IMG/VR virus record: IMGVR_UViG_3300032313_001109
Location: 1-39,010 of that record
DNA: 39,010 nt
Direction: 5' to 3' (one strand)
Origin: a virus
Below are positions 2,507 through 39,010 of the stretch, piece by piece. The stretch's first letter is position 1, and the number at the start of each line of letters is the position of its first letter. Made by a program: the position numbers and the translations under genes. The notes under the pieces are model-generated. The model was given only the letters and a program-made list of their open reading frames with translations. It was not told the DNA's origin and searched no databases.

Positions 2507-4465
2507 ATGAAGAACATTTTTGAAAAGAGGGTAAATATTTTGCCTTATGAATATCCATCATTATTAGCATATAAAGATGCTATAAGACATGCTTACTGGC
2601 TTGCAAGTGAGTTTAACTTTACAAGTGATATTGATGACTATAGGACAAAAATAACAAATGAAGAACGTGAAGTTATTAAAAGAACTATGTTGGCTATTGC
2701 ACAAATTGAGGTCAATGTCAAAACATTCTGGGCTGACTTATACAAGAGAATGCCTATAACTGAAATTGGTGATGTTGGTATGACATTTGCCGAGTGTCAT
2801 GGTGAAGGTACAGAAATATTAACACCAAAAGGCTGGGTTAACTTTAAAGATATTGATATCAATACAGAAGTTATTCAATATGATTTAGAAACCAATACAA
2901 TGACATCTGTTTTACCAAGTAATGTTATAAATGAACCTTACAAGGGAAAAATGCACAGGATTGAGAACCAAACTTATAGTGCATTGCTTACCCCCAACCA
3001 TAACATTTACTACAAAACTAGGAGTGGTAATATTATAAAAAGGGCTATTAAAGATATTAATGCTTTTAGTAGTGATATGAAACTACCTTTTTCTGGTAAA
3101 TTTGTTAATGAGGGGGTTGATGAGTTAACAACCATTGAAAGATTGAGAATTGCCATTCAAGCTGATGGATCTGCTAGATTCTGGGATAAAAATGGTGAGA
3201 AAGTAAGAAGGGGTTCAGATTCAAATACTAATACATATGAAATTTCAGTAAAAAAAGAAAGGAAAAAAATTAGACTTAAAAACCTTATTTTAGAATCAGG
3301 ATTAACTTATAGAGAGTATAATACATCAAGACCTGAATATGTTAAATATGAGATAGACTTTCCTATTGATTATGATCTTAAACAATTTGATTGGGTTGAT
3401 TTATCTGATAAGTCTGAAAAGTGGTGTAATTCCTTTATTGAAGAATTGATTGAATGGGATGGGACTAGATTAGAAGGTAAGGGTAATGCCAAGAATTGTC
3501 TTATTAGATATTCAACCACTAATAAATCATGTGCTGATAAGGTTCAGGCAATAGGATTTTTAGCAGGATATAGGGCTAATATAGGGACTTCAGTAGATAA
3601 TAGGAAAGATTCTTATAAAGATGTTTATGCTATTAATTTTGTAAATGTAGAACCTTATTCCTCAATAACATACAGACCAACTATTGAGGATTATGATGGT
3701 AATATTTATTGTGTCACCGTTCCAACAGGGGTTATTATAACAAGATATAATAATAAAGTTTTAATATCAGGAAATTCGGAAGTAAGACATAAAGATGCTT
3801 ATGCGCAATTATTAAGAATTCTTGGGTTGGAAAATGAGTTTCAGACAGTTATTGAAATTCCTGCCATAAAGAATAGAATTCGTTATCTATCAAAATATTT
3901 GGATGGAACAAGGAGTAAGGGGAATAAAATGTACACAAAGTCTGTATTATTATTTTCATTGTTTATTGAGCATGTGAGTTTATTTAGCCAGTTCTTGATT
4001 ATGATGTCCTTTAATAAGGAGAAAAATCTATTCAAGGGTATTTCAAATGTGGTTGAGGCAACCTCAAAGGAAGAAGAAATTCATGGTAATTTTGGATCAG
4101 AACTTATTAATATTATTAAGGAAGAAAATCCAGAATGGTTTGATGATGAATTTGAGCAACTGATTGTTTCTGCTTGCCATAAAGCATATGCTGCGGAATG
4201 TGGAATACTAGATTGGATATTTGAGAATGGAGAGTTAAGTTTCTTATCAAAAGATACAATTAAACATTTCATTCAGAATAGATTTAACAACTCATTAAGT
4301 AGAATTGGAATGAAGCCAGTATTTGAGGTTGATTTTACAGAGATTGAGAAGACATTATGGTTTGATGTGGAGATTTTATCAACAAAGGAGGATGATTTTT
4401 TCTATAAGAAAAGTACTTCTTATAATAAGAAACAAAAGTCAATAACAGAAGATGATTTGTTTTAA
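2507..4465 (+). CDS. nrdB: Ribonucleotide reductase class I small subunit NrdB (R2), interrupted by an intein
   Basis: The precursor has 652 residues; removing the 327-residue intein leaves a 325-residue R2, normal for a compact NrdB/NrdF. R2 holds the metal site and radical that NrdA needs to reduce ribonucleotides. The exteins join as GMTFAE-SEVRHKDAY. In spliced numbering the visible ligands are Glu68 (AQIEVNV), Glu98 and His101 (EVRH), a later Glu in FIEHVSLFSQF, and the EEEIH pair. Tyr105 sits at the usual radical position, four residues after the His. Glu rather than Asp as first ligand, together with the overall sequence, recalls the dimanganese class Id enzymes of Flavobacteriia (inference). 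The C-terminus EDDLF resembles the R2 tail that docks to NrdA. There is no N-terminal ATP-cone. An HNH gene and nrdA follow. Confidence 0.93.
   Translation: MKNIFEKRVNILPYEYPSLLAYKDAIRHAYWLASEFNFTSDIDDYRTKITNEEREVIKRTMLAIAQIEVNVKTFWADLYKRMPITEIGDVGMTFAECHGEGTEILTPKGWVNFKDIDINTEVIQYDLETNTMTSVLPSNVINEPYKGKMHRIENQTYSALLTPNHNIYYKTRSGNIIKRAIKDINAFSSDMKLPFSGKFVNEGVDELTTIERLRIAIQADGSARFWDKNGEKVRRGSDSNTNTYEISVKKERKKIRLKNLILESGLTYREYNTSRPEYVKYEIDFPIDYDLKQFDWVDLSDKSEKWCNSFIEELIEWDGTRLEGKGNAKNCLIRYSTTNKSCADKVQAIGFLAGYRANIGTSVDNRKDSYKDVYAINFVNVEPYSSITYRPTIEDYDGNIYCVTVPTGVIITRYNNKVLISGNSEVRHKDAYAQLLRILGLENEFQTVIEIPAIKNRIRYLSKYLDGTRSKGNKMYTKSVLLFSLFIEHVSLFSQFLIMMSFNKEKNLFKGISNVVEATSKEEEIHGNFGSELINIIKEENPEWFDDEFEQLIVSACHKAYAAECGILDWIFENGELSFLSKDTIKHFIQNRFNNSLSRIGMKPVFEVDFTEIEKTLWFDVEILSTKEDDFFYKKSTSYNKKQKSITEDDLF
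2795..3775 (+). other. NrdB intein with LAGLIDADG endonuclease, 327 residues
   Basis: It starts at Cys97 (CHGEGTEILTPKGW) and ends VLISGN before Ser. Block B holds the TPNHNIYY motif. The two LAGLIDADG helices are at precursor residues about 209-221 (LRIAIQADGSA) and 307-320 (EELIEWDGT), both keeping the acidic catalytic residue, so the endonuclease looks intact. The penultimate residue is Gly (S-G-N), not the canonical His. The insertion lies one residue before the metal-ligand Glu of the EVRH motif. Confidence 0.9.
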
Positions 4466-4534: not shown

Positions 4535-5386
4535 ATGAATTGGACAATAATTTACAAAAACTTAATAGATAAAGCAATCCTAGAACAAAGATGTAAAAGT
4601 ACTGAAATATATTATGAAAATCATCATATCATACCAAAACATATGGGAGGTGATAATTCAAAAGATAATTTAGTACTCTTAACATTTAGAGAACATATAT
4701 TAGCACATTACATATTGTGGAGGATTTATGGTCGTGAAGGTGATAAATTAATGTATTCTATTAGAAATCTTCAAACAGAAGAATCACAAAGATTAAGAGT
4801 TAAATTAGCAGTTGAAGCAAATAGAAATGGAGGTAAAGGTTTTCAAAATTGGAGTGGTGATAGAAACCCTATGAAAGATTCCTTAAAAGTTAAAAAAGCA
4901 CTAGAAAGTAAAAGACAAAAATACAATGGGAATATTATGTCACCTGATGTTAAGAAACAATGGCTTCCTAAAATTAAAAAGAGAATGCAAGAAATGTCAA
5001 AAGACCCTAATATACAAGAAAAAAGGTCTAAAACCATTAAAGAAATTAATTCAACTTTAACACCAAAAGAATTTGCACTAAAATATAATAATGCAGGTGA
5101 AAATAATGGAAATTATGGTTGGATTAAAGGGTATTATGAAGTAATTGATCCTGATGGTAATATTACAAAATATGAAAATCAAGAAGAAATTATAAAGCAA
5201 TTAAGGTTATCCCAATCTTTTTTAATTAGAAATAGAAACAAAGGAGTGTGTTATACAACACCAAAGAAAAACGCAGGTAAATGGAATGGATGGACATTTA
5301 ATTATTTTAAATTACCATGCCCAACTACTGGAAGGGTGCAAAAAGAGCATAAAAAACATAAATCAACTAAAAGGCAAAAAAAATGA
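4535..5386 (+). CDS. HNH homing endonuclease between nrdB and nrdA (position as T4 mobE)
   Basis: This 283-residue protein has an N-terminal HNH core at residues about 28-65: YENHHIIPKHMGGDN, then NLVLLTFREHILAHY, giving the paired His, Asn and final His of the zinc/metal finger fold. The middle (residues 110-185) is Lys-rich and probably helical. The C-terminal part, with GYYEVIDPDGNITKYENQE, resembles NUMOD-type DNA-binding modules of phage endonucleases. Its stop overlaps the nrdA start by four bases (ATGA), so translation is likely coupled. In T4, mobE also lies between nrdA and nrdB, so this is a recurrent landing site. The target is unknown; an nrd gene of a competing phage is likely. 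Confidence 0.82.
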   Translation: MNWTIIYKNLIDKAILEQRCKSTEIYYENHHIIPKHMGGDNSKDNLVLLTFREHILAHYILWRIYGREGDKLMYSIRNLQTEESQRLRVKLAVEANRNGGKGFQNWSGDRNPMKDSLKVKKALESKRQKYNGNIMSPDVKKQWLPKIKKRMQEMSKDPNIQEKRSKTIKEINSTLTPKEFALKYNNAGENNGNYGWIKGYYEVIDPDGNITKYENQEEIIKQLRLSQSFLIRNRNKGVCYTTPKKNAGKWNGWTFNYFKLPCPTTGRVQKEHKKHKSTKRQKK

Positions 5387-8136
5387 ATAAAGAAAAATAT
5401 TATTGGTTAAATGATGAGAGTAGGCTTTTCTTATCAAGGGGGTATATAAATGAGACCCCCGAGCAAAGGATTAAAGATATTGCAAATAAAGCAGAAGAGT
5501 ATTTAAAAATTGATGGGTTTGCTGTTAAGTTTGAGGATTATATGGCAAGGGGGTTTTATAGCCTTTCTACACCCGTATGGATTAATTTTGGTAAAGAAAA
5601 GGGATTGCCTATATCCTGCTATGGGTCCAACATTGACGATACTCTGGATAGTATTTTGAATGCTGGAAGAGAGATTGGTATGATGTCAAAATATGGTGGT
5701 GGGACAAGTGCTTATTTGGGTAATATTAGAGCAAGAGGTAGCAAAATATCAACAGGTGGGACAGCAGATGGCCCTGTGCATTATGCAAGGGTGTATGACA
5801 CAGTTGTTGATGTATGCAAACAATCAGAGGCAAGAAGGGGGGCATGTGCAGTTTGGTTGCCAGCTGAACATGAGGATATTATGGAGTTTCTTGATATTGG
5901 ATCAGAGGGCAATCCAATCCAGAATTTACAATATGGTGTTACTGTTTCAGATAATTGGATTAATGATATGAAGGGGGGTGATCCAAGTAAGAGAAAGATA
6001 TGGGCAAAGATTATTCAAAGGCGTAATGAGTTTGGTTTTCCATATATTATGTTTAAGGATAACTCAAACAACAATTCCCCCTACAAAGAGTTGGGTATGG
6101 AGATAACTGCTTCAAATTTATGCTTAACAGAAGACCAAAGAGTTGTTACAACAAAAGGGTATTTGACTGTGAAAGAGTTATATGAGAGTGGTGAGGAACT
6201 AGTTTTATTTAGTGGGAGTGAAGCTGTTAAATCATCTCCTATGTTATTGAGAAATGAGGATGCTGAAATTCTAAAAATAACATATTCAAATGGGATGACA
6301 CAAAAAGTGACATTTAATCATGGAATACCAGTTTTAAATGATACTACAAAAGATATTGTAAGAGTTGAAGCAAAGGATTTGAAAATTGGTGATTATGTTG
6401 CACTACAAACAAATAAAGGTTTGTTTGGTGAAATAGACATGCAGGATGAGGCTTATTTGTTGGGTTTATATCAATCAGATGGCACGCAGACCAAGGATGA
6501 GTTAATGATTGATGTTTGGGAGAATGATTTTGATTTGATTGATGATATTCAAGAAAAATTCAATAAAATACATTATAAGTATGGTTGTGATACATATGAT
6601 GTTAAAAATGCTTTTGGTAGGGAAAAAGTTGGATTAAGAAATAGAAAACCAGCAACATTTCATGATTGTAAAGTTAGCCAATCTCTTGTTAAGAAAAAAA
6701 GATTAACATCAAGAACACTTAAAAAAGCATTAAATTTTGAAAAAGGTTATGTTCCATCTTGGATTTGGGAATCAAATGAGGATACTATTTGGTCTTATTT
6801 AAAAGGTTTGTTATATGCAGATGGTACAGCATTTAAAAGTCCATCACATGGAGAACCATTACAAATAGCATATGCTGATATTAATAAAGGGTTTTTGAAA
6901 GAATTACAAATTTTATTTACAAATTTAGGATTAAGTTGTTCAATTGCTTTATTAAGAAAAGAGGGGTCACATTTAATGCCAGATGGTAAAGGTGGTCATA
7001 AATATTATACATCTAAAGATTGTTGGAGATTAATTTTTGGTAGTAAAAATGATGCCTTAATTATTGAAAATAAAACACAATTCTTGTCAAGAAAAAATAT
7101 AATTATTGAGGAAAGAGAATATAGAGATAATACCAAAAAAAGGGCAAAGGTTGTTGCAATTGAGCAATTAGATAATGAACCAGTTTATTGCCCAACTATT
7201 GATAATGATGAGCATATTTTTGTATCAAATGGTTTGAGGACTTTTAATTGTTCTGAAATTCAATTGCCGACAAATTCATTAAATTCATTTGTTTGTTGTT
7301 TGGGTTCATTGAATTTACTTCATTGGGATGAGATAGTTGAGACTGATGCAATTGAGGTTTATACAATGTTCTTAAATGCAGTTATGGATGAATTTATATT
7401 GAAGTCAGGTAAAATGGCTGGTATGAAAAGGGCTAATAGATTTGCGTCACAACATAGAGCAATTGGCTTGGGGGTTTTGGGTTATCATTCATTATTCCAA
7501 TCAAAATTAATTCAATTTGAATCTTTGATGGCAAAGCAATTAAATCATCAAATATTTAAAACAATTAAAGAAAAATCTGAATTGGCTTCAAAATATTTAT
7601 ATGATGAGAAGGGATATAAATGTTTAAGAGAGGGATATGCCAACACAACACTAATTGCTATTGCCCCAACCAAGTCAAGTTCGTTTATTTTAGGGCAAGT
7701 AAGTATGGGTATTGAGCCAATCAAATCAAATTATTTTATTAAAGATTTGGCAAAATCAAAAACAATTTATAAGAATCCATTTTTGGAAATTGAATTGGAT
7801 AAGTATGGTTTAAATACACCAGAAACTTGGGAGAGTATTTTGAAGAAAGATGGCTCAGTTCAGCATTTGGATTTTCCCACAAAAGAGGTGTTTAAATCAT
7901 TTATTGAAATATCACCAAAAGAATTGATATTACAAGCAGCACAGAGGCAAAAATTCATTGACCAATCACAGTCATTAAATTTGATGATACATCCATCAGT
8001 TCCAGCAAAGGATATAAATCAATTATATCTATATGCTCATGAAGAGGGGGTTAAGACGCTTTACTATCAGTTTAGCCAGAGTTCAGCACAATCATTTGCA
8101 AGGAATATTAATGAGTGTGTGAGTTGTGAATCGTAG
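5383..8136 (+). CDS. nrdA: Ribonucleotide reductase class I large subunit NrdA (R1), interrupted by an intein
   Basis: The precursor has 917 residues, and the spliced protein 541, against about 760 in E. coli, because there is no N-terminal ATP-cone or long N-terminal domain. It catalyses reduction of ribonucleotides to deoxyribonucleotides. Visible catalytic features are Cys79 in LPISCYGSN (redox Cys, equivalent to E. coli C225), the exteins joining as SNL-CSEIQLP around the thiyl-radical Cys (C439 equivalent), the CCLGSLNL segment with the partner Cys (C462 equivalent), a PTKSSSFILGQVSMGIEP nucleotide-binding segment, the radical-transfer pair Tyr894-Tyr895 (KTLYYQF), and the C-terminal redox pair Cys912/Cys915 (ECVSCES). 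All essential residues are present, so the enzyme should be active after splicing. It is expressed with nrdB and ends at a strong bidirectional terminator. Confidence 0.94.
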   Translation: MNKEKYYWLNDESRLFLSRGYINETPEQRIKDIANKAEEYLKIDGFAVKFEDYMARGFYSLSTPVWINFGKEKGLPISCYGSNIDDTLDSILNAGREIGMMSKYGGGTSAYLGNIRARGSKISTGGTADGPVHYARVYDTVVDVCKQSEARRGACAVWLPAEHEDIMEFLDIGSEGNPIQNLQYGVTVSDNWINDMKGGDPSKRKIWAKIIQRRNEFGFPYIMFKDNSNNNSPYKELGMEITASNLCLTEDQRVVTTKGYLTVKELYESGEELVLFSGSEAVKSSPMLLRNEDAEILKITYSNGMTQKVTFNHGIPVLNDTTKDIVRVEAKDLKIGDYVALQTNKGLFGEIDMQDEAYLLGLYQSDGTQTKDELMIDVWENDFDLIDDIQEKFNKIHYKYGCDTYDVKNAFGREKVGLRNRKPATFHDCKVSQSLVKKKRLTSRTLKKALNFEKGYVPSWIWESNEDTIWSYLKGLLYADGTAFKSPSHGEPLQIAYADINKGFLKELQILFTNLGLSCSIALLRKEGSHLMPDGKGGHKYYTSKDCWRLIFGSKNDALIIENKTQFLSRKNIIIEEREYRDNTKKRAKVVAIEQLDNEPVYCPTIDNDEHIFVSNGLRTFNCSEIQLPTNSLNSFVCCLGSLNLLHWDEIVETDAIEVYTMFLNAVMDEFILKSGKMAGMKRANRFASQHRAIGLGVLGYHSLFQSKLIQFESLMAKQLNHQIFKTIKEKSELASKYLYDEKGYKCLREGYANTTLIAIAPTKSSSFILGQVSMGIEPIKSNYFIKDLAKSKTIYKNPFLEIELDKYGLNTPETWESILKKDGSVQHLDFPTKEVFKSFIEISPKELILQAAQRQKFIDQSQSLNLMIHPSVPAKDINQLYLYAHEEGVKTLYYQFSQSSAQSFARNINECVSCES
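6121..7248 (+). other. NrdA intein with LAGLIDADG endonuclease, 376 residues
   Basis: It begins at Cys247 (CLTEDQRVVTTKGYL) and ends at Asn622 (SNGLRTFN) directly before the catalytic Cys, which also serves as the +1 residue. The block B His lies in VTFNHGIPVL. LAGLIDADG helices are at residues about 355-368 (LLGLYQSDGTQ) and 469-482 (LKGLLYADGTA), both with Asp intact. The penultimate residue is Phe rather than His. Confidence 0.9.
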
Positions 8137-8158: not shown

Positions 8159-8197
8159 AAAAACCCCCAACCTATTAATTTAGAATTGGGGGTTTTT
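8159..8197. terminator. Bidirectional rho-independent terminator between nrdA and the minus-strand genes
   Basis: A perfect 12-bp inverted repeat, AAAAACCCCCAA / TTGGGGGTTTTT, has a 15-base loop. The A- and T-runs give a U-tract in either direction. It lies between the converging nrdA and 8219-8479 genes. Confidence 0.9.
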
Positions 8198-8218
8198 AAT
8201 AATAGTATTGATTTAAAC

Positions 8219-8479
8219 TTATTTGCCACTCAATGTATCATAAATACGTTCAAGTTTTGTTACATCAGCTTCACTAAATGCAAAATTACTATTATCAAAT
8301 TTATCTTTCATTGTTGAAAGTTTATCTGTGATTTTTTTAATCATAGATAGTGCTTTTTTGCCAGTTTTTGCTTTACCTTCTTTATGGTAGTCCATAAAAT
8401 GACCTTCACTTCCTTTTTCTTCAACAATTCTCTTTACTAGTTTAGTTAAACCAGCTTCTGTTAATCTTACTGTTTTCAT
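8219..8479 (-). CDS. Small protein with RLTEAG leader; possible internal head protein
   Basis: This is an 86-residue basic protein with no recognised family. Residues 1-20 (MKTVRLTEAGLTKLVKRIVE) are almost identical to the start of the neighbouring 8520-9089 protein, while the rest is unrelated. The body is charged and helical, with Lys-rich segments (GKAKTGKKALSMIKKI) and an Asp/Glu-rich end. The leader resembles in layout the T4 capsid-targeting sequence (MKTYQEFIAE followed by Ala), with a possible prohead-protease site after LTE, so packaging into the head is a reasonable but untested idea. It is transcribed opposite to the flanking operons, has its own AT-rich upstream region and ends at the shared terminator. 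Confidence 0.75.
   Translation of the reverse strand: MKTVRLTEAGLTKLVKRIVEEKGSEGHFMDYHKEGKAKTGKKALSMIKKITDKLSTMKDKFDNSNFAFSEADVTKLERIYDTLSGK
8420..8479 (-). repeat. Duplicated 60-base leader, copy 1
   Basis: It encodes the first 20 residues of the 8219-8479 protein and matches 9030-9089 at 57 of 60 positions by direct comparison. Similarity stops at its inner end. Confidence 0.9.
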
Positions 8480-8501
8480 ATTTTTTTTATTTAGAATTAC
8501 C

Positions 8502-8510
8502 TAAAAATAT
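8502..8510 (-). promoter_or_regulatory. Candidate promoter element for the 86-residue minus-strand gene
   Basis: On the minus strand it reads ATATTTTTA, one mismatch from ATATTTATA, 23 bases before the ATG at 8479. Confidence 0.3.
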
Positions 8511-8519
8511 CTTATGGTG

Positions 8520-9089
8520 TTAGGAGTTTGTTTTTTTTGATTCCCATTTAGGGACAGCATATCTAAAATAGTTAGCATAGGCTTGTCTATCACGTTGTGA
8601 TAAATATGCTAAACCAATGAACAATTTTTTAAAATTAATATCATCAACTGATAGAGTATCTGCCAATGCTTCAGGGCTTGAATTTCTAGGAATTATATTA
8701 TTACGTTGCATAATCTCTTTTGGTCCATCCCATCTTTCAACAACGCCTCTAAAGTATTTAAGGTGGGTTGATAAGTCGTTTTTTGCTAAACGGGCTAACC
8801 CAATAAATAGTTCTTGGAAGTCAATATCTTCAACTTTTAGGGTTGCTGCCAATTTCTCTGGGTCTGGACCATCTACACCACCACCAAATAAACCACCCTT
8901 ACGTTGGCGTAATTGTTCTGGGGTCATTTCATAATTTACTGAACCTGGACGAGATAGATTGCGTATTTCTTCTGGAGACATATTAGCATACTTTTTATGT
9001 CTTTCTCTGTCGCTGTCTGTTAATCCTTGTTCAACAATTCTTTTAACTAGTTTAGTTAAACCAGCTTCTGTTAATCTTATTGTTTTCAT
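8520..9089 (-). CDS. RLTEAG-leader protein with two tandem 46-residue repeats; possible internal head protein
   Basis: The protein has 189 residues from the ATG at 9087-9089. A longer in-frame TTG start at 9113 is rejected because that extension coincides with the promoter-like ATATTTATA, and the ATG aligns exactly with the 86-residue neighbour. Residues 1-20 are the shared leader. Residues 21-75 are polar, with a Gly-rich turn (KGGLFGGGVDG). Residues 76-121 and 139-183 are two copies of one domain: DPEKLAATLKVEDIDFQELF and SPEALADTLSVDDINFKKLF, each followed by I-G-L-A and a Tyr-Phe-Arg segment. No known family was recognised. A role as a packaged internal protein is inferred only from the leader. 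Confidence 0.8.
   Translation of the reverse strand: MKTIRLTEAGLTKLVKRIVEQGLTDSDRERHKKYANMSPEEIRNLSRPGSVNYEMTPEQLRQRKGGLFGGGVDGPDPEKLAATLKVEDIDFQELFIGLARLAKNDLSTHLKYFRGVVERWDGPKEIMQRNNIIPRNSSPEALADTLSVDDINFKKLFIGLAYLSQRDRQAYANYFRYAVPKWESKKTNS
9030..9089 (-). repeat. Duplicated 60-base leader, copy 2
   Basis: It encodes residues 1-20 of the 189-residue protein and differs from 8420-8479 at three positions. Two differences are silent and one gives Val/Ile at residue 4. Confidence 0.9.
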
Positions 9090-9172: not shown

Positions 9173-9649
9173 ATGGCTGAAGGTTTTACATATGGTGTTG
9201 ATTTCCCCTTTGATACATCACTTAGAGGTGATGCCTTAAAGATGACAGAAACTGCTTCAGATGAGATTAGAGCATCTTTATTGCATTTGTTATTAACAAG
9301 AAAAGGTAGTAGATATTATTTACCAGATTTTGGGACAAGATTATATGAATTTCTATTTGAACCATTGGATGTTGTTTCATTTGATGTGATTGAAAATGAT
9401 ATTAGGGATTCTGTTGCAAAGTATATACCAAATTTGGTTATCAACAAGATAATTATTGAGCCTTTGGATCAGAATGAGGAGGTTCAAGGGAACAGATTGA
9501 GTGTGGATGATGTTGGGTTATCATCAAGGGATAAGGTTTATCGTTCGCCTGGTAATGGCACATATCAAAATACAGCAAAAATAAAAATAGAATACACTAC
9601 AAATAACAATAGTTTTTCAGGTAGTGAATTTGTCGTAATAAATATATAA
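9173..9649 (+). CDS. gp25: Baseplate wedge protein, gp25/GPW family
   Basis: This 158-residue protein belongs to the gp25/GPW family that nucleates the inner baseplate of contractile tails and contacts the first sheath ring. The diagnostic segment is at residues 42-64: TRKGSRYYLPDFGTRL followed by YEFLFEP, equivalent to the family's G-x-R-x-x-x-P-D-F-G pattern and acidic end. The C-terminal part (residues 100-158) is a polar extension ending in beta-like sequence. Length is slightly above the roughly 130 residues of T4 gp25. gp6 follows one base after the stop, the T4 order. Confidence 0.93.
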   Translation: MAEGFTYGVDFPFDTSLRGDALKMTETASDEIRASLLHLLLTRKGSRYYLPDFGTRLYEFLFEPLDVVSFDVIENDIRDSVAKYIPNLVINKIIIEPLDQNEEVQGNRLSVDDVGLSSRDKVYRSPGNGTYQNTAKIKIEYTTNNNSFSGSEFVVINI

Positions 9650-9650
9650 T

Positions 9651-11483
9651 ATGTCAGATAGAAAAATATCATATGGTGTTAGGGATTTTCAGAGTATAAG
9701 AACTGAATTATTAAATTATGTTAGGACATATTATCCTGACTTGATTAATGATTTTAATGATGCGTCCATATTTTCAGTATTCCTTGATTTGAATGCGGCA
9801 GTTGCTGACAATTTGCATTATCATATTGATAGGAGTTTGCAAGAAACAGTTTTGCAATATGCACAACAAAAATCATCCATATATAATATAGCAAGAACAT
9901 ATGGACTAAAAATACCAGGACAAAGACCTTCATTGACCTTATGTGATTTTTCAATAGTTGTCCCCCCATTTGGTGATAAGCCAGATGCAAGATATGCTGG
10001 TATCCTTGAGAGAGGTGCACAAGTCTTGGGTAATGGGGTTATTTTTGAAAGCATAAATGATATTGATTTTTCATCAGATTATGATGGTCAAGGTCTTCCA
10101 AATAGGACAGTTATACCAAACAAGTTAAATAATATAGTTATTAATTATACTTTAACAAAACGTGAGCCAGTTATCAATGGGGTTACAAAGGTATTTAAGA
10201 GAGTTATAACAGCATCTGATGTTAGACCATTTTTTGAATTATTTTTGCCAGATAAAAATGTTTTGGGTATTACAAGTGTTTTATTAAAAGATGGTCAGAT
10301 AAATACAATTCCCCCATCATCAGACTTTATTGGGGATGCAAATAAATGGTATGAGGTTGATTCATTGGCAGAGGACAGGGTTTTCATTATTGACCAAACA
10401 AAGGACACAGGTAATGCTGGTATAAAGGTTGGAAAGTATATTCAAACAGATAGTCGTTTTGTAAGTGAATTCACATCAGAAGGATTTAAGAAATTGACAT
10501 TTGGAAATGGGGTTAATACAGCATTAGAGCAATTAAACCAATTCACAACAACAGGTCAATTACCCACATTACAGAATTATTTGAATAATTTCTCATTGGG
10601 CAGGACATTAAAGCCAAATAGCACCTTATTTGTTCAATACAGAGTTGGGGGTGGTTTGAATACAAATTTAGGACCAAATACTATTAATCAAATTGGAATT
10701 AATTCTTTTAGAGTAAATGCTGGAAATCCAGCACAAGAATCTTCTGTTATTAATTCTTTGAGGGTTAATAATTTATTCCCTGCCATTGGTGGTGCTGGAT
10801 TACCAACAACAGAGGAGGTTAGAAATTTTGTATCATTTAATTTTGCTGCACAAAAGAGAGCAGTAACAATTAATGATTATGAGGCAATTATTAGAAATAT
10901 GCCTTCCCAATTTGGATCACCAGCAAAGGTTGCAGTTCAGGAAGTGGATAATAAGATACAAATTCTTGTATTATCATATGATTCAAATGGAAAATTAATT
11001 TCAGATAATTCAAAATTCTTAACAGATAATATTGCAAATTATTTATCAAATTATAGAATGATAAATGATTATATTGTTGTATCATCAGCAAAAGTTATTG
11101 ATGTTAGTGTTGAGGCTTCAATTACAATATATCCAGGCTTCACATCAAAAGATATTATAAATAATGTAATTTCAACAATTAATGGATATTTTATTCCACA
11201 AACCATTCAGTTGGGGAGTGACATTAATGTATCTGAAATAAAAAGTAGTATTCAAAAATTAAATGGTGTAATTTCAATATCTGATTTGGTTTTCACTAAC
11301 CAAGTTGGGGGTAATTACTCTGGGGGTGAAACATCAATGCCATATTCAAATGCTGCAAACAGAACTATTGCTGCAATTGATGAAACTATTTTTGCTGAAC
11401 CAAATGAAATATATCATATAAGGTATCCAGAAAAAGACATTAGAGTTAAAGTGAAGACAAATAATGGTTTAACAATTGGTTAA
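9651..11483 (+). CDS. gp6: Baseplate wedge protein, gp6/baseplate J family
   Basis: This 610-residue protein compares with about 660 residues in T4 gp6. gp6-type proteins (P2 gpJ, the Tri1 component of other contractile systems) build the inner ring of the baseplate. Its N-terminal region has DFQSIRTELLNYVRTYYPD and NDFNDASIFSVFLDLNAAVA, followed by YNIARTYGLKIPGQRPS, as in T4-like gp6. The central part contains a baseplate-J-like region (GNGVNTALEQL and AQKRAVTINDYEAIIRNMP), where the T-x-x-D-Y-E motif is typical. The C-terminal part has the small alpha/beta domain (DVSVEASITIYPGFTSKDI) usual for this family. Its position directly after gp25 confirms the call. Confidence 0.92.
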   Translation: MSDRKISYGVRDFQSIRTELLNYVRTYYPDLINDFNDASIFSVFLDLNAAVADNLHYHIDRSLQETVLQYAQQKSSIYNIARTYGLKIPGQRPSLTLCDFSIVVPPFGDKPDARYAGILERGAQVLGNGVIFESINDIDFSSDYDGQGLPNRTVIPNKLNNIVINYTLTKREPVINGVTKVFKRVITASDVRPFFELFLPDKNVLGITSVLLKDGQINTIPPSSDFIGDANKWYEVDSLAEDRVFIIDQTKDTGNAGIKVGKYIQTDSRFVSEFTSEGFKKLTFGNGVNTALEQLNQFTTTGQLPTLQNYLNNFSLGRTLKPNSTLFVQYRVGGGLNTNLGPNTINQIGINSFRVNAGNPAQESSVINSLRVNNLFPAIGGAGLPTTEEVRNFVSFNFAAQKRAVTINDYEAIIRNMPSQFGSPAKVAVQEVDNKIQILVLSYDSNGKLISDNSKFLTDNIANYLSNYRMINDYIVVSSAKVIDVSVEASITIYPGFTSKDIINNVISTINGYFIPQTIQLGSDINVSEIKSSIQKLNGVISISDLVFTNQVGGNYSGGETSMPYSNAANRTIAAIDETIFAEPNEIYHIRYPEKDIRVKVKTNNGLTIG

Positions 11484-16445: not shown

Positions 16446-18102
16446 ATTTAATATTGTTCCTAGTGTATATAAGAATAAAGTTGGTGATGAAACTAACTCA
16501 CAATTGGTTATTAACTTGGATAATACCCAGAAAGAGCTTATTCAGTTTGATAGAGATATTACTGTTGATTTAAAAGAATTATATAATAAAGAAAAAATAC
16601 AATCATATAATATTAGACCAACATTTAAAGTTAGTTACATATATGATAATTTTTATTCTGGCACAACTGATAGTAAATACAAGTCACAATTAATATATAA
16701 TATTAATAATAAAAACACCTCTTCAATATCAAATGTTGACAAAGGTTTCTTACCTGGGTATGAATTTGATTTTTTTAGACCAAATATCCCAAATTCTTTT
16801 GGGTATGAATCAATTAATGCTTTTAAATATAATTGGGAATATTATATAACTTATCCATTTAGTGGTGATAGTAAGCAAAATTTAAATATAAAGATAGATA
16901 ATAGATTTTACAATTGGGTGGCAGAAGAAGGAATACCATTTGTTACTGATGTCATTGTAGAAGATGGGTTTAATTTAACTAGAATTAGATGTTCATTACC
17001 CCACAATTTAACTGATACAGATGGTGTTGCAATTAAAATTGATTCAATTGTTAGATTGTATGAAATATTTTCATTTGGTGATGGATCATATGGTTCAGAT
17101 GAATATGTTTTAAATATTTTAAGAGTTAATAATGATATTTCTGATAATAAGTTGGGTACATTAAGGAGGGTTATATCTATTGAAAATAGTGGGGAAACAA
17201 TATCCAAATATTATGTTAGAAAACATAAAGTTATTAAGAATTCAAATGATATTGTGGCAACAAAGGCTGGATTTGAAACAGGTATATTTGACCAATCAAA
17301 AGTGTTAAGTTTTATTGGGGATAAATTTTCTTTTCTGAAAAAAGCATCAAATATTTCATATAATTTTATAGTAAATAATGATATAAATATTGAAACACTT
17401 GTTGATAACCAAAACAGACCATTAACTGAAATATACTTAACAATGGTATATAAGGGGTATTCTGGCTTTTTTGATGTTATTAAAAAAGGTTGGTTATTTA
17501 ATATAACAGATCCAGTTAATAGTTGGTGGGATGATTCAACATCAAATTCAAATACAAATATTAATGTTGAGACTTATTTTGATGATAAAAAAAATCAATT
17601 TAAATATTTTAAATTAAGTGATGATAACCTTGATGGTGATTTTTGTGAATATAATGAATATACCCAAGAGGAAATAGTCATTTCTGATTTATATCATAAA
17701 ATAAAACATTCTGATGAAGTTTTTAGAGTTTCAAATTATGATAATAATAAATCTGGATATTATTATAAGCCACATAATAAATTGGTTTTGAAAGTTTTTT
17801 CAGATTATATTGAAACTGTTGATTTTAAATTTGCTTATGATGTTCCAAATTATGCTTTCTATTCAAAAGTTGATGGACAATTTAGATGGAGGGATATTTA
17901 TGATGTTGGATTTTTTGATGAAAATAATAATGGGGTCAACTATCCTTTTATAAATAATTCTTTTTATCCATTTGTTAATAATATTTTTAAATTGTTTCCA
18001 GAGGGGTATGATTATTATACTCAAAAAGTAAATAAATCAGCAAATGTTGGGGGTACTTCTTCTTCATTAATTGTAAAACCATTGGTAGATGACTGTGAAT
18101 AA
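16438..18102 (+). CDS. Virion structural protein, unrecognised (554 residues)
   Basis: This 554-residue soluble protein is rich in Asn, Asp, Tyr and Phe and has no recognised domain. The sequence alternates short hydrophobic strands with polar turns, and near the end has several Phe/Tyr segments (FWRDIYDV-like and YPFINNSFYPFVNNIFKLF). The start overlaps the stop of the 1627-residue gene by eight bases and its end overlaps the next gene by 14, so all three are probably translated together. By position it should be a baseplate or fibre-attachment protein. There is no signal peptide or membrane segment. Confidence 0.75.
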   Translation: MNKFNIVPSVYKNKVGDETNSQLVINLDNTQKELIQFDRDITVDLKELYNKEKIQSYNIRPTFKVSYIYDNFYSGTTDSKYKSQLIYNINNKNTSSISNVDKGFLPGYEFDFFRPNIPNSFGYESINAFKYNWEYYITYPFSGDSKQNLNIKIDNRFYNWVAEEGIPFVTDVIVEDGFNLTRIRCSLPHNLTDTDGVAIKIDSIVRLYEIFSFGDGSYGSDEYVLNILRVNNDISDNKLGTLRRVISIENSGETISKYYVRKHKVIKNSNDIVATKAGFETGIFDQSKVLSFIGDKFSFLKKASNISYNFIVNNDINIETLVDNQNRPLTEIYLTMVYKGYSGFFDVIKKGWLFNITDPVNSWWDDSTSNSNTNINVETYFDDKKNQFKYFKLSDDNLDGDFCEYNEYTQEEIVISDLYHKIKHSDEVFRVSNYDNNKSGYYYKPHNKLVLKVFSDYIETVDFKFAYDVPNYAFYSKVDGQFRWRDIYDVGFFDENNNGVNYPFINNSFYPFVNNIFKLFPEGYDYYTQKVNKSANVGGTSSSLIVKPLVDDCE

Positions 18103-18634
18103 ATATAGATTACTCCAACCAAAACTTAATGATATAACAATAAGTTTCCCAATTAAGTTGGATTTTGATAATGTTGGACAACAAGATACAATAAATAGTT
18201 ATGGTGAAAATATATTAAGTAATTCTATTAATGCAGTAATTGATTATGAGGTAGTTAGATTTTCACATAGTGGATTACTAGAAGGTTTTCCCCTACCATC
18301 AAAAACTAGCACTCCAACTCCAACTCCAACTATGACAGTTACCCCAACTCCAACAAGAACTGCTACACCTATGGTTACACCAACTAGTACGGTTACACCA
18401 ACTATAACACCAACCAATACAAACACACCAACAGTAACATCAAGTAATACACCAACCCCATCAATATCACTAACCCCATCAGTAACACCATCTATAACAC
18501 CAACTGTAACACCAACAAGAACGGTTACACCTACCAATACTGCAACACCAACAGTGACACCAACACCATCAGTAACAGAATTAAGATATTATTTATCAAA
18601 TAATTTAATAGTATTTAATCAAAATTGTACATAA
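18089..18634 (+). CDS. Tail-associated protein with Thr-Pro stalk
   Basis: In this 181-residue protein, residues 1-70 form a folded N-terminal part (YRLLQPKLNDITISFPIKLD) that probably docks onto the baseplate. Residues 73-163 are almost entirely Thr, Pro, Ser and Val in a repeating T-P-T/T-P-S pattern, expected to be an extended stiff stalk and a possible glycosylation target. Only 18 residues follow (LRYYLSNNLIVFNQNCT), too short for an adhesin head, while the next gene, one base downstream, encodes a FISUMP domain. The two may once have been one stalk-plus-head protein, or they may assemble together. The start overlaps the upstream gene by 14 bases. Confidence 0.75.
   Translation: MTVNKYRLLQPKLNDITISFPIKLDFDNVGQQDTINSYGENILSNSINAVIDYEVVRFSHSGLLEGFPLPSKTSTPTPTPTMTVTPTPTRTATPMVTPTSTVTPTITPTNTNTPTVTSSNTPTPSISLTPSVTPSITPTVTPTRTVTPTNTATPTVTPTPSVTELRYYLSNNLIVFNQNCT
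18305..18577 (+). repeat. Thr-Pro-coding low-complexity repeat
   Basis: Degenerate repeats of ACACCAACN type encode the T-P stalk (residues 73-163). Similar repeats occur at 27501-27533 and 28014-28211, providing homology for recombination between fibre genes. Confidence 0.85.
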
Positions 18635-27782: not shown

Positions 27783-29051
27783 ATGGCAACATATAAATTA
27801 ATTGTAGTAAATACTGATCCAATATGTGAGAATAGTATAGAGAATGAGATAACGGGGGTTACGGCTTGTTCAAGGTATTATATACAATTAAATCCAACAT
27901 CTCATTCAAAGGGTCCATTTAATATATATTTAGACACAACAAATAGTGTTCCATTATATACCAATATAACAAGGAATGAATTTTTGGTTGGGATTACAGT
28001 TGAAATATTATGTACAACGCCAACTCCAACACCATCCATAACTCCAACCATAAGTATAACACAAACACCAACAAAAACGCCAACAAAAACACCAACTAAT
28101 ACACCAACTCTATCAATAACATCAACAAAAACTCCAACACCAACCATAACACCAACAAAGACAAATACCCCAACGCCAACCATAACACCAACAGTGACTC
28201 CAACAACACCAGAAGAATATGATGCTTATTTATTTATTGAGCCAGTTAGTTTGAATGTTGAATTTAATTCTTGGATGTCATCTGGGGGTAGTTTATTTAG
28301 GGGATTTTCAAATGGTATTGGTCCATCAATAAGTGCAACAACATTTAATGACCAGATTAATAGGTATATATCTTTTTCAGGTTGGGGTGTTAATGCACCA
28401 CAAGTAAGGACAACAAAGATAAGCCAAAATAGTGGTGGATTTGATGAATATGGTAATTTAATTCAATCCTATTTATTTAAGACACATGAAGTTCCAGCAT
28501 ATTTAACAACAGGGTATTCTTGGTATACTTGGGTGATACCAAATTTAAATACAAATAGAAATCTTGTTAGTAACATTGGTGTTAATGAATATGGTGACCC
28601 AGCAGCATTGATTCCAGTTAATACAAATTTATTATATGCTGGATTAACAGTTATATATAGTGGATTTACAATTCCACAAGATTATTATCATATATATACA
28701 ACATTTAGCAATACAAATTTCAGATTAAATAACAATAATAAAATATATTTTAAGGGAAATTCCTTAATTCCAGATACAAATGGTTGTAATTCTTTTGATG
28801 TTTATATGGATCCGTCAACACCATCAATATTGTCTTGTTATGAGGTTTGCATTAATGCACCAAATACCAGAATATATGGAAAGACAACAACATTTAATGG
28901 TACAAATGGGCAAAAATATTATATTGATTTTCAATCATGCCTAAACAATAATGATAGTGCTTGGAGTGAGGCAAAGAAATTTAGCATAAATGGATATTGT
29001 TATTCAACCAATTCAGTTGGGGTTATAACAGGGTCAACAATATGTAGTTAA
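27783..29051 (+). CDS. Tail fibre/adhesin with Thr-Pro stalk
   Basis: In this 422-residue protein, residues 1-77 form an N-terminal domain (MATYKLIVVNTDPICENSIE) likely to dock to the tail. Residues 78-143 are a Thr-Pro-Ser/Ile stalk. Residues 144-422 are a larger beta-rich head with aromatic strands (TGYSWYTWVIPNLN, DYYHIYTTFSNTNFRL) and Cys residues near the end, likely the receptor-facing part. No family was recognised for the head. The domain plan (dock, stalk, head) is complete here, unlike the 18089-18634 protein that ends soon after its stalk. It is the last gene before a 60-base gap. Confidence 0.77.
   Translation: MATYKLIVVNTDPICENSIENEITGVTACSRYYIQLNPTSHSKGPFNIYLDTTNSVPLYTNITRNEFLVGITVEILCTTPTPTPSITPTISITQTPTKTPTKTPTNTPTLSITSTKTPTPTITPTKTNTPTPTITPTVTPTTPEEYDAYLFIEPVSLNVEFNSWMSSGGSLFRGFSNGIGPSISATTFNDQINRYISFSGWGVNAPQVRTTKISQNSGGFDEYGNLIQSYLFKTHEVPAYLTTGYSWYTWVIPNLNTNRNLVSNIGVNEYGDPAALIPVNTNLLYAGLTVIYSGFTIPQDYYHIYTTFSNTNFRLNNNNKIYFKGNSLIPDTNGCNSFDVYMDPSTPSILSCYEVCINAPNTRIYGKTTTFNGTNGQKYYIDFQSCLNNNDSAWSEAKKFSINGYCYSTNSVGVITGSTICS
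28014..28211 (+). repeat. Thr-Pro-coding low-complexity repeat
   Basis: This AC/CA-rich repeat encodes stalk residues 78-143. It has the same composition and codon pattern as 18305-18577. Confidence 0.85.
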
Positions 29052-29111: not shown

Positions 29112-31319
29112 ATGAGTTTTGAATATAAAAATCCAAAATCTACTATTGTACTTTCTGGGCCAAATAGTGTTCCATTAGATTCAAATACAGGGTCAAATTT
29201 TAGTGCATTCCAAGTTGGGGGGTTTTACGAAGTTTTTAAATTAAGTGATTTAAATTTCAATATACCAAGTGGTGCAACTGGAACAATATTATATTCAGGA
29301 AATACAATACCAATTGACTTTAGTTATAACGCACCAAATGGTTCACCAAATGTGGTTAATCTATACTCAGATGGTGTTTCTTCTGGAAGAAGAAAAATAG
29401 GTATGATTGCCTATGTATATGAGAATAACAAGACATATCAATACCAAATACCAAATTATGAAACATTATTTAATAATGCTGTAAATGTTGGCTCAGTTGT
29501 TAATATTGATTTTGGTTATCAAGTATATGATAATACAAATGAAGGGCAATTATTATTAAATGCTTGGACAGGTTCAACAATTGAAGGAATATCAGGTATA
29601 ACAAGAAATAATGCAAGATGGGTTGAGTTTAATCCAGAGATTTATGTTACAGGTGGAACATATAGTTCAGGAGACACTACATTATATTTATATGATAATT
29701 CTGGTAATACCATAGCAGTATCAGGTTTTAGTGTTAGTGTTAGTGGATCAACTGGAACAAGTGGAACAAGCGGGGATTCAACTGGTACATCAGGTAGTTC
29801 TGGAACAAGGGGAACATCAGGTAGTTCTGGAACAAGTGCACAACCATTGACTGAATTATCAATATCAGGAGTTAAAAATGGAAATAATAGGACATTCACA
29901 ATTTCCCAAGAGATTGATGAAGCAGTTAGTTTATTTTTTGTCAATGGTCAATTGCAGCAATATGGTGTTGATTATACAATTGTTGGTAATCAGTTAATAA
30001 TTGATTCACAGAATCCAGCACCAACACCAAATTACATATTAAAAATATTTGGTGGTATTATTTTGGGTTTTAATGGAACAAGTGGTACATCAGGTACAAG
30101 TGGTTCATCAGGAACAACCGGAACTAGCGGCACATCAGGTTCATCTGGTGTAAATGGAATATCAGCAGGTCAAGTATATTATTTCAATGAAAGCCAGAAT
30201 TCTGATGTTAATGGTTATAAAACCTTATCAATTACTCCACTTGCAACTGCACAACAAAGTGTTGTTACATTAGTTCCAGGTCATTCAACAGGGACATTAG
30301 TTTCAGATTATATAACACCTGAATTGGGTTTCTCTGTAATACCTGGTGGTACACAAAAGTTTCATTTACACTTCTTAAAAACAAATCAAAATAATTTGAT
30401 GGATGCCTATGTTGAGATTCAATTGGCTAATTTTAGTGGGCAAACAATTGGACCAATAATAACATCAAATGTTAGTCTTATAAATTGGTTAGATGGCTCA
30501 ACACCAGTTGAAGTAAATGTTGATATAACATTACCAACAACAACAATTGATCCGACAAATAGAATGATTGTTAGAATATATTTGAACAATCAACAAGGTT
30601 CATCAAAAAATGTGACATTTTATACAGAAGGGAATGCCAATTATTCATTTGTGTTAACATCAGTTGGTGCAATAGCAGGTAGTTCTGGTGTGAGTGGAAG
30701 TAGTGGAACGTCAGGTACATCAGGAACAAGTGGAATGTCAGGTACATCTGGTACAAGTGGAATATCAGGCACAAGTGGTCAACCAGTTAATAAATTAAAT
30801 TTAAGTGGTGATATTGATGGTATTAATAAAACATTTATCATATCTGAAATAGTTTTAATAGATAATCATTTATTCTTTTGGAATGGACAATTACAAGAAT
30901 ATGGAACAACCTATGGCATAACTGGAACAACATTAGAAACAATATATGCGCCTCTAATTGGTGAGAATTTAGCCATATACGGTGGTGTAGTTATAGGTGT
31001 TAGTGGAACATCTGGAACAAGCGGTAGTTCGGGGAGTTCTGGAACAAGTGGTAGTAGCGGAACATCAGGTAGTTCTGGAACAAGTGGTTCATCAGGGATT
31101 AGTTTTTCATTTGAAATACAAGAATACCTAAATGAAAATAATACAAATTTGGTATTCACCGCTGGAACGTTATCAACCAATTATGGGAGAACTCATGTAT
31201 ATCAAAATGGTCAAAAATTATATACAAACCAATATACCATTGTATCATCAGCTGTAACAATAATTGACACTACCCATTTTGATGGATCAAATTATCAAAT
31301 ATTTGCAATTTTAATTTAA
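29112..31319 (+). CDS. Tail fibre with four collagen-like G-T-S stalk blocks
   Basis: In this 735-residue protein, residues 1-211 are an N-terminal attachment region. Gly-X-Y triplets, mostly G-T-S, G-S-S and G-T-R, form stalks at residues 212-242, 322-346, 523-556 and 632-662, consistent with a collagen-like trimer without Pro. Between them are beta modules. Those at 243-321 and 557-631 are copies of each other (LSISGVKNGNNRTFTIS and LNLSGDIDGINKTFIIS, then LFFVNGQLQQYG and LFFWNGQLQEYG). The C-terminal domain, 663-735, is a third relative (HVYQNGQKLYTNQYTIV). A degenerate TATATTATA upstream may be its promoter. It is followed by a 65-base gap and the signal-peptide cassette. Confidence 0.85.
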   Translation: MSFEYKNPKSTIVLSGPNSVPLDSNTGSNFSAFQVGGFYEVFKLSDLNFNIPSGATGTILYSGNTIPIDFSYNAPNGSPNVVNLYSDGVSSGRRKIGMIAYVYENNKTYQYQIPNYETLFNNAVNVGSVVNIDFGYQVYDNTNEGQLLLNAWTGSTIEGISGITRNNARWVEFNPEIYVTGGTYSSGDTTLYLYDNSGNTIAVSGFSVSVSGSTGTSGTSGDSTGTSGSSGTRGTSGSSGTSAQPLTELSISGVKNGNNRTFTISQEIDEAVSLFFVNGQLQQYGVDYTIVGNQLIIDSQNPAPTPNYILKIFGGIILGFNGTSGTSGTSGSSGTTGTSGTSGSSGVNGISAGQVYYFNESQNSDVNGYKTLSITPLATAQQSVVTLVPGHSTGTLVSDYITPELGFSVIPGGTQKFHLHFLKTNQNNLMDAYVEIQLANFSGQTIGPIITSNVSLINWLDGSTPVEVNVDITLPTTTIDPTNRMIVRIYLNNQQGSSKNVTFYTEGNANYSFVLTSVGAIAGSSGVSGSSGTSGTSGTSGMSGTSGTSGISGTSGQPVNKLNLSGDIDGINKTFIISEIVLIDNHLFFWNGQLQEYGTTYGITGTTLETIYAPLIGENLAIYGGVVIGVSGTSGTSGSSGSSGTSGSSGTSGSSGTSGSSGISFSFEIQEYLNENNTNLVFTAGTLSTNYGRTHVYQNGQKLYTNQYTIVSSAVTIIDTTHFDGSNYQIFAILI
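29745..29837 (+). repeat. G-T-S triplet (collagen-like) repeat block 1
   Basis: Nine-base units of the GGAACAAGT/GGTACATCA type, 31 codons, in frame with the fibre gene. Confidence 0.85.
30075..30149 (+). repeat. G-T-S triplet repeat block 2
   Basis: 25 codons of the same degenerate nine-base unit, between two beta modules. Confidence 0.85.
30678..30779 (+). repeat. G-T-S triplet repeat block 3
   Basis: 34 codons, including G-M-S and G-I-S triplets that also occur in the large block of the downstream fibre. Confidence 0.85.
31005..31097 (+). repeat. G-T-S triplet repeat block 4
   Basis: 31 codons dominated by alternating G-T-S and G-S-S before the C-terminal module. Confidence 0.85.
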
Positions 31320-35978: not shown

Positions 35979-38900
35979 ATGCCAACAAGATTAGATATAT
36001 ATGGGCAGAGCATATCAACAACATTAAAGAGACCATGCAAGGTTGCAACAACTGGAAGCATTGTATTATCAGGAGTTACAACACCAAGCACAATTGATGG
36101 AATTGGTTTAAATGTTGGAGATAGGGTATTGGTATGGCAACAATCATCAAATATTGAAAATGGGATATATAAGGTTCAGACATCACAACTTTTGGTTCGA
36201 GATTATGATTTGAATATTGATGAGGATGCTTATGCTGGGATTGAGGTTTTTATATTATCAGGTCAAACACATGCTAATAAAAGATTTTATTTGGAAACAA
36301 ATTCACCAATTAGCATTGGGTTAAGTGGTATGACATTTTTAGCACTTGCTGGCCAAGGTGGGGGGTCAGGGTCTAATGGGACATCTGGAATAAATGGGTC
36401 ATCTGGAACAAGTGCTACATCAGGTAGTTCAGGAACAAGTGGAACGTCAGGCACAAGTGGTACATCTGGCACAAGTGGAATGTCAGGCACAAGTGGTACA
36501 TCTGGAACGTCAGGCACAAGTGGTACATCTGGCACAAGTGGAATGTCAGGCACAAGTGGTACATCTGGAACGTCAGGCACAAGTGGAATGTCAGGTACGT
36601 CAGGCACAAGGGGTACATCTGGAACAACTGGTACAAGTGGAATGTCAGGAACAAGTGGTACATCTGGTACGTCAGGAACAAGTGGTACATCTGGTACAAG
36701 TGGAATGTCAGGCACAAGTGGAACATCAGGTAGAAGTGGAACAACAGGGACATCTGGTACATCCGGAACAAGTGGGACATCTGGTAGTTCTGGAACAAGA
36801 GGAACATCAGGAACAAGTGGGACATCTGGTAGTTCTGGAACAAGTGGAACATCAGGAACAAGTGGTACATCTGGAACATCAGGTAGTTCTGGGACAAGTT
36901 TTATATTTGATGGTGAAAGTTGTGACAACAATTATGAGTGGTTAAGATATAGCCCAATAAAATTTTATAGGACAGAAACAACATCACCAACATCACCAGT
37001 TTCTTCATATTCATTAGTTAGAACAACAGATAATACACAAGCAAATTGGTCAATATCTGGATCAAAAGTTTATGACATTGGATATACAACAGGTGGTACG
37101 GGTTCATTAATAGCAACATTAACCACACCTAATTTATGGTTGTATCCAACTGGTACACCAAGAATTGGACCTTTAAATAGAAGTGCTATATGGACAACAA
37201 ATAGTGTTACTAATACCTGGATTGGGTTTTCATTTTGTTTAAGTGGCATTTCTGAATCAAAAACATATTATGTTGGTGTTGCTGGGGATAATGAATTTAG
37301 ATTAGTTTTAGATGGTATTACAATTGTTGATTCAAGTTTAGGTTCATTAACAGCACAAGATAAATTTAGAAGTTGGCATATTTACCCAGTTACAATATAT
37401 GAAGGTAATCATACCTTAGAATTATATGGTTTAGACAATGGTGGTGAAGCTGGTTTTGGTTGTGAAATTTATAACAATACATTAAATCAAATATTAACCG
37501 CAGCAACATTAAATGATTTAAATATTATATTTAGCAGTAGTGGTCAAACAGTTGCAAATGTTGTTCAAAATTTAAGTGGACAATATTTAAGCAATGGATA
37601 TGTTTGTCCCACAAATTATGTATATTCTACTTGTGGTGGTGGTACAGGTGTTTGTACAAAATTAATTTATTGTGTTGCTGGTCAAGTTGGAACATCTGGT
37701 ACAAGTGGAACATCAGGTACAAGTGGCACATCTGGTACAAGTGGAACGTCAGGAACAAGTGGAACGTCAGGTACATCTGGTACAACGGGTACATCAGGCA
37801 CAAGGGGTACGTCAGGCACAACTGGAACATCAGGTACAACGGGTACATCAGGCACAAGGGGTACGTCAGGAACAAGTGGTACAACGGGTACGTCAGGAAC
37901 AACTGGAACATCAGGTACAAGTGGTACATCAGGCACAAGGGGTACGTCAGGAACAACTGGAACATCAGGTACATCAGGAACATCAGGTACAAGTGGTACA
38001 TCAGGTACAACGGGTACGTCAGGTACAACGGGAACATCTGGAACAAGGGGAACATCAGGTACATCTGGGACAAGTGGTACGTCAGGTACCGGTTTTAATG
38101 CAATAAATAGTCCACAAAATGATAGAATATTAACATCATTAGGTACAACAAATACTGCAAATGCTGAATCAAATTTAACATTTGATGGGACAATATTAAA
38201 TTTAAGTGGATATACTTCTTTTGGTAATGTAGATAATACTCATAGATTTACAAATACTTTATCTGGAAATCAAACTTGGACACCACCATCAGGGTTTATT
38301 ACATCTTTTTTTAATGAAACTGTTAGTGGTGGTTGGTATTTTAGTGGAAGTAATTCAGGATACCCAATATTATCAATATTATCAACAAGTAATGATAGAA
38401 AAAAATCAGGTATAACACTTAATTCTCAAGGAACAGCTAATGATACATATACTCCAGCTATAACATTTAGTTCTTTATCTAATAATAGTAATTATTATTC
38501 AGCATATGCAGCAATTATAGGAAAAAAAACAGGAACTGGTAATTCCTCTACTAGTGGTGCGGCAGATAATAATTGGAATTCTGGTCATATAGAATTTTAT
38601 GGAACAACTCAAGCAACAAGTAGTTTAGGTGGCATTATGCGTAATGCTAATATGGTCGTAGGTGTTGGTGTTGGTATTGGTTATACTTCGCCCCCCACAA
38701 TAAATGGAAGATTAACAGTGTTTGAAAGAATTGGTATAAATAATTCTGCACCAACTGTTGCTCTTGATGTTAGTGGTGCTGGGTTATTTAGTGATAATGT
38801 TACTGGTGGAACATTTTCACCAACAAGTATTCAGCCATCAAGGAATGGTATGTATTTACCATCAGCAGATACCCTTGGATTTTCAACTGCTGGTGGGGAA

Positions 38901-39010
38901 AAATTAAGAATATTAAATAATGGTAGTGTTGGTATAAATCAAATGAGTCCATCATATACACTTGATGTTGGTGGTACATTTAGAGCAACTAGTGATAGTT
39001 TAATAGGTGG
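35979..39010 (+). CDS. Large tail fibre with two collagen-like G-T-S stalks; 3' partial
   Basis: It is open from the ATG at 35979 to the window end (1010 codons seen, no stop). Residues 1-130 match a widespread tail-fibre N-terminal domain: [39 protein letters not shown], and [15 protein letters not shown]. Residues 134-307 and 571-705 are long G-T-S triplet stalks. Residues 310-570 form a beta-rich domain with Trp, Tyr and Cys ([32 protein letters not shown]), possibly carbohydrate-binding. Residues 706-1010 have fibre-shaft motifs ([48 protein letters not shown]) that commonly precede an intramolecular chaperone (peptidase S74) domain, which would lie beyond the window. It is probably the main long tail fibre. 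Confidence 0.87.
36378..36899 (+). repeat. Long G-T-S triplet repeat, stalk A of the second fibre
   Basis: 174 codons of degenerate nine-base units (such as GGTACATCTGGCACAAGT), with larger near-identical blocks containing GGAATGTCAGGCACAAGT. This tract is prone to slippage and recombination. Confidence 0.9.
37689..38093 (+). repeat. Long G-T-S triplet repeat, stalk B of the second fibre
   Basis: 135 codons with frequent G-T-T and G-T-R triplets. The DNA is related to stalk A and to the four blocks in the 29112-31319 gene. Confidence 0.9.

Follow-up and report, generated by a model that had tools for sequence, protein, structure and literature searches.

Among described head-loading systems, the closest to the one considered here is that of phage T4. 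The internal proteins of T4 carry N-terminal capsid-targeting sequences (CTS) of 10-19 residues, the prohead protease gp21 cleaves after L/I-X-E, and in gp21 itself LIE-9 lies close to the N-terminus (passages of PMC9026906). The internal proteins are described as highly diverse, with the CTS alone conserved (a passage of PMC3012670). The head propeptides of SPN3US and phiKZ are also N-terminal, and a gp21-like protease cleaves them behind a short x-x-E motif. Passages of PMC5694885 describe these cleavages from mass spectrometry and report that SPN3US gp53 and gp54, whose overall identity is only 34%, begin with the same 15 residues.

The window analysed here is the whole of a 39,010-base IMG/VR virus fragment. 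Between a ribonucleotide reductase gene and the T4-type baseplate genes gp25 and gp6 it contains two minus-strand ORFs, 8219-8479 (86 aa) and 8520-9089 (189 aa; ATG at 9089), which bear the only two copies in this record of a leader that we refer to as the tag (Table 1). The gp25-like gene places the window's phage among T4-type myoviruses. The earlier note had described the pair as two unrelated proteins sharing a nearly identical 60-base leader, and this feature proved to be real, with the leaders identical at 57/60 bases and the bodies assigned to different clusters at E<1e-3. The body of the 189-aa protein has a two-fold internal repeat seen in its sequence. Structure prediction gave poor models for both proteins (mean pLDDT 53 and 45), in both of which the leader, a basic stretch, is modelled as helical over residues 8 to 22.

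Table 1. Features of the tagged genes and the adjoining baseplate genes (window positions)
Feature	Position	Strand	Basis
Proposed cargo body of 86-aa protein, including stop codon	8219..8419	-	ORF; kept at the same locus in relatives
N-terminal tag of 86-aa protein (MKTVRLTEAGLTKLVKRIVE)	8420..8479	-	57/60 bases identical to tag 9030-9089; family consensus
I-V-E, proposed prohead-protease site at tag end of 86-aa protein	8420..8428	-	[ILV]xE tag ends; gp21 motif
L-T-E, proposed second site within tag of 86-aa protein	8456..8464	-	family conservation (pattern-selected segment)
Proposed cargo body of 189-aa protein	8520..9029	-	ORF; comparison with L003 relative
N-terminal tag of 189-aa protein (MKTIRLTEAGLTKLVKRIVE)	9030..9089	-	ORF; 57/60 base identity
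I-V-E, proposed prohead-protease site at tag end of 189-aa protein	9030..9038	-	[ILV]xE tag ends; gp21 motif
L-T-E, proposed second site within tag of 189-aa protein	9066..9074	-	family conservation (pattern-selected segment)
gp25-like baseplate wedge protein	9173..9649	+	PF04965 E=6.8e-11; PHROG 261
gp6-like baseplate wedge protein	9651..11483	+	PHROG 6/219; 58-96% identity to tagged records

Several other features of the window were recorded. A DnaB/gp41-like helicase gene (1-2428) is apparently split into ORFs 1-720 and 1970-2428, each with half an intein, and the ORF between the halves (763-1989) may be a homing endonuclease; a split intein is possible. Inteins seem to be present in both ribonucleotide reductase genes (2507-4465 and 5383-8136), and an HNH-endonuclease-like ORF (4535-5386) lies between these genes. 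A terminator-like inverted repeat at 8160-8198, AAAACCCCCAA...TTGGGGGTTTTT, separates the tagged genes from the ribonucleotide reductase gene and could serve both strands. Two large ORFs with long collagen-like repeats (29112-31319 and 35979-39008) are found among presumed tail-fibre genes, and ORFs 18089-18634 and 27783-29051 contain TPTPT repeats.

Tag loci were collected by two pattern searches of viral contigs, the broader of which matched at least 120 stretches, and by one search with the 189-aa protein. The tag had been expected to reveal more cargo, and it did: at least 165 non-identical proteins from viral contigs have an N-terminal leader of the MKKxIRLTESDLxxIVKRVIxE type, and the bodies behind it form at least about 121 unrelated clusters (blastp, E<1e-3). 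As in a CTS, the leader is a short N-terminal sequence common to otherwise unrelated proteins. A core profile built without the MKK start gave 217 matches of at least 15 bits, of which 209 lay within the first 12 residues, and six of the eight others directly followed an MKK in frames with the start set too early. The range of cargo clusters, this N-terminal placement and the independent recombination of tag and body described below all bear out the idea of a portable tag.

The consensus of the 165 proteins is MKK[IV][IV][RK]LTESDLx[RK][IL][VI]KR[VI]IxE. The conservation of LTE across the family concerns a segment that was selected by the search pattern; since that pattern stopped at +7 after the first Glu, it does not account for the conservation from +8 to +13. 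A Glu at +13, the end of the tag, is present in 159/165 proteins, and the information content, 4.06 bits at this Glu, drops to 1.47 one residue later and is below 1 from there on. The residue preceding the terminal Glu is variable, [ILV]xE closes 156/164 tags, and the residue that follows is mostly Q, E, S, N or D. When tags on unrelated bodies were compared by codon position, differences were most frequent at the third (0.45, against 0.30 and 0.20 at the others), indicating that conservation acts on the protein. A reading of the 60 bases as regulatory DNA was rejected on the same pattern.

The head clusters inspected in tagged phages run in the order portal, 238-aa protein, 155-aa protein, gp21, 71-aa protein, gp22 and gp23, with gp23 and gp21 identified through matches to solved T4 proteins. 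In these clusters, gp23 has a predicted maturation site, LI[NYS]E before [AS], shortly upstream of its conserved domain (15/15), and close to the gp21 N-terminus there is an [IL]xE before S, N, Q, G or D (16/16). The residue after the predicted cut is A or S in gp23 and Q or E in most tags, a difference that counts against reading the tag as a CTS. The tag likewise ends in a [LI]-x-E-type prohead-protease motif, as is characteristic of a CTS, and the proposed LTE- and IVE-type sites agree with the published gp21 motif as well as with those predicted in gp23 and gp21 of tagged phages. One tagged ORF stands immediately after gp21 (G011) and another immediately after gp23 (G006). The gp21 of G009 (L210:8940-10094) is 384 aa long and has a large intein-like insert after RRAYGE. 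The gp22 scaffold, considered as a source of the tag from a by-eye likeness to its N-terminus, was discarded, as gp22 gave no match to the tag-core profile.

The end of the tag also bears on a different function, in which the leader acts as a docking helix, bringing proteins to some part of the virion (core, neck or tail) or to each other, and is never cleaved. The basic leader drawn as a helix in both poor models would suit such a role, and core binding by itself would also yield a portable N-terminal leader. It is nevertheless unlikely, as it leaves unexplained both why conservation stops exactly at [ILV]-x-E, with a variable residue before the Glu, and why the same motif occurs in gp23 and gp21.

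The earlier note had called for a gp21-like protease to be sought. PF03420, the T4 prohead protease family of gp21, was present in all 12 tagged records of at least 149 kb, which carry 3 to 25 tags each, and in 17/27 tagged records overall. The gp23 capsid family was found in 15/17 of the PF03420-positive tagged records and in 11/12 of those of at least 149 kb. A gp21-type protease and a gp23-type capsid, as in a phage that uses a CTS, go together in 11 of these 12 records. Because a control search with ribonucleotide reductase yielded close relatives of the window, the control used was a sample of 50 viral records drawn with a neutral 15-base pattern. The tag occurred in 0/50 of these random records and PF03420 in 7/50; as leaders of the same kind recur in many related phage records, chance is excluded. 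Among records of at least 80 kb, PF03420 was present in 17/22 of the tagged and 3/10 of the random ones (p=0.018), and among those of at least 140 kb in 12/12 against 1/4 (p=0.007), a co-occurrence that in part reflects membership of one clade. More distant ribonucleotide reductase relatives (165-236 kb) had PF03420 matches and no tag of this class.

For the window's own phage a gp21-like protease is claimed by extension. Compared with the gp6 of two tagged fragments, that of the window is 96% and 77% identical, and its identity to the gp6 of records having gp21, gp23 and tags is 58-62%. As neither the window nor the contigs of its closest relatives extend to the head genes, we infer its gp21 from the more distant of these relatives.

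The same distribution weighs on a target outside the head, by which the leader would, early in infection, direct proteins to the host membrane, to the host polymerase or to some other complex of host or phage. Binding to membranes or nucleic acid is common among amphipathic basic helices, the tagged genes of the window are situated away from the head cluster, and a few tagged genes lie on chromosomal-looking Bacteroidales contigs, all of which would agree with such a target. However, it predicts neither the [IL]xE end nor the link to gp21 and the lack of tags in the random records, and we regard it as quite improbable.

Comparison of close relatives showed that tag and body have been exchanged between them. 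The 86-aa protein of the window and its counterpart in L454 are identical at 196/198 bases of the body and 50/60 of the tag, while the comparison with L013 gave the opposite pattern (182/198 and 58/60). In L003, the version of the 189-aa protein lacks residues 22-65, the body restarting right behind the tag, and both tags have an identical ACT to AAT change. Tags on unrelated cargo of the same contig had a DNA identity of 0.722 against 0.685 when shuffled (0/300), a small effect that may partly reflect base composition, and concerted evolution is thus only suggested. That the leader is functionless, left over from a gene start recently duplicated or copied by gene conversion, as the 57/60 identical bases in one genome and the change shared by both L003 tags might imply, is very hard to credit given the conservation of the protein through silent differences, the codon-position pattern across phages and the ~121 cargo clusters in many phages.

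The cargo itself is mostly orphan. Searches with 116 cluster representatives gave matches to seven Pfam families, namely peptidoglycan-binding in two members and LysM, UPF0227, alpha/beta hydrolase and others in one each, to which PHROGs added endolysin and tape-measure. Defence models gave scattered single weak matches, and the remaining representatives are without recognisable function. None of the 116 matched a T4 internal-protein family. Among 50,697 phage records, the 189-aa protein found no relative and the tag one non-significant match. Thus in the phage-record and cargo-family searches neither leader nor body was related in sequence to T4 IPI-IPIII.

IPI, IPII, IPIII and Alt, like the tagged proteins, are diverse proteins with a short N-terminal leader ending in [LI]-x-E, and T4, like the tagged phages, has gp21, gp22 and gp23. 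The tag, a candidate CTS, differs from the T4 CTS in sequence and is longer (about 21 against 10-19 residues); a single record may have as many as 25 copies, where T4 has a handful, and at least 120 cargo clusters bear it across phages. The propeptides of SPN3US and phiKZ differ further, being mostly longer than 100 residues, confined to a fixed set of head proteins and cut at A/S-x-E, and their cleavages were measured whereas that of the tag is predicted. By gp23, one of the nearest named relatives is the cultured Flavobacterium phage vB_FspM_immuto (about 41% identity), in which the annotated prohead protease adjoins gp23 and the start of gp23 has IVSE before A. Two immuto proteins with different bodies start MKKQILSEQF[RK]RMQxLAGIITES; this leader is another sequence, and no leader of the tag class was found in immuto. 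A literature search with tag strings returned nothing relevant, and the titles and abstracts listed for capsid-targeting work on T4, P1 and SPN3US do not report the tag. Judged against the libraries searched, the tag is new in sequence and much larger in cargo range than the T4 CTS.

Further leader classes were apparent at the same loci. In the other 1,681 ORFs, an [LIV][TS]E motif whose Glu falls at residues 7 to 10 was strongly over-represented, with counts of 89, 36, 18 and 10 at residues 7, 8, 9 and 10 and roughly 5 at most later positions. Such leaders include MK[YIF][LI]ITESQ and M(G)K.IITEEEK.RI; in 18/38 of the latter, against 21.5% expected, another [LIMF]xE follows, with Q or N after it in most. 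The recurrent leaders MKIIITENQYK and MKYLITESQ were seen on proteins within or close to the head cluster and in extended tandem arrays of genes (L203:2713-3159, L206:6105-7061, L046:6013-8551 and L056:1186-3547). A related leader, MKKxIRLTESDLHRIVKESVKRVLxE, begins single genes (L474:4619-5005, L480:1765-2145 and L481:6395-6958) on apparently chromosomal Bacteroidales and Prevotella contigs, possibly captured phage genes, and this location counts against a CTS; the body of the L481 gene weakly matches an ADP-ribosyltransferase family.

A tag on unrelated proteins that ends in the cutting motif of the head protease is probably an address label for particle loading, and we consider it likely that the leader is a CTS that functions as the one on T4 internal proteins does. 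In cells infected by a T4-like phage, the basic, probably helical leader of ~20 residues would bind the prohead core, and the core-bound proteins would become enclosed in the head. There gp21 would cut behind the [IL]-x-E that closes the tag, perhaps also after the internal LTE, and the bodies freed inside the head would be ejected with the DNA into the next host. The earlier note had proposed a head-packaging system delivering injected effectors, and its reading holds in part: the portable tag, the gp21-type protease, the matching sites and the extra cargo were all found, whereas we infer core binding, cleavage, packaging and injection from the motif, the company it keeps and T4, and an effector function, most cargo being orphan, is a guess from T4 precedent.

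Since the tag is interchangeable between bodies, phages could load varied sets of accessory proteins. We tentatively extend this to a general cargo-loading system, in which interchangeable tag classes might serve one prohead core and one protease, with many unrelated proteins in each virion and the cargo swapped by recombination. If cargo loading is the true function, its logic would be comparable to that of a bacterial secretion signal, with modular exchange of targeting signals among cargo genes, and the tags would list hundreds of candidate injected proteins. An N-terminal motif would then mark the head-loaded, and probably injected, proteins of a large uncultured group of giant phages, nearly all of them of unknown function, and the content delivered to the cell alongside the phage DNA would become directly testable.
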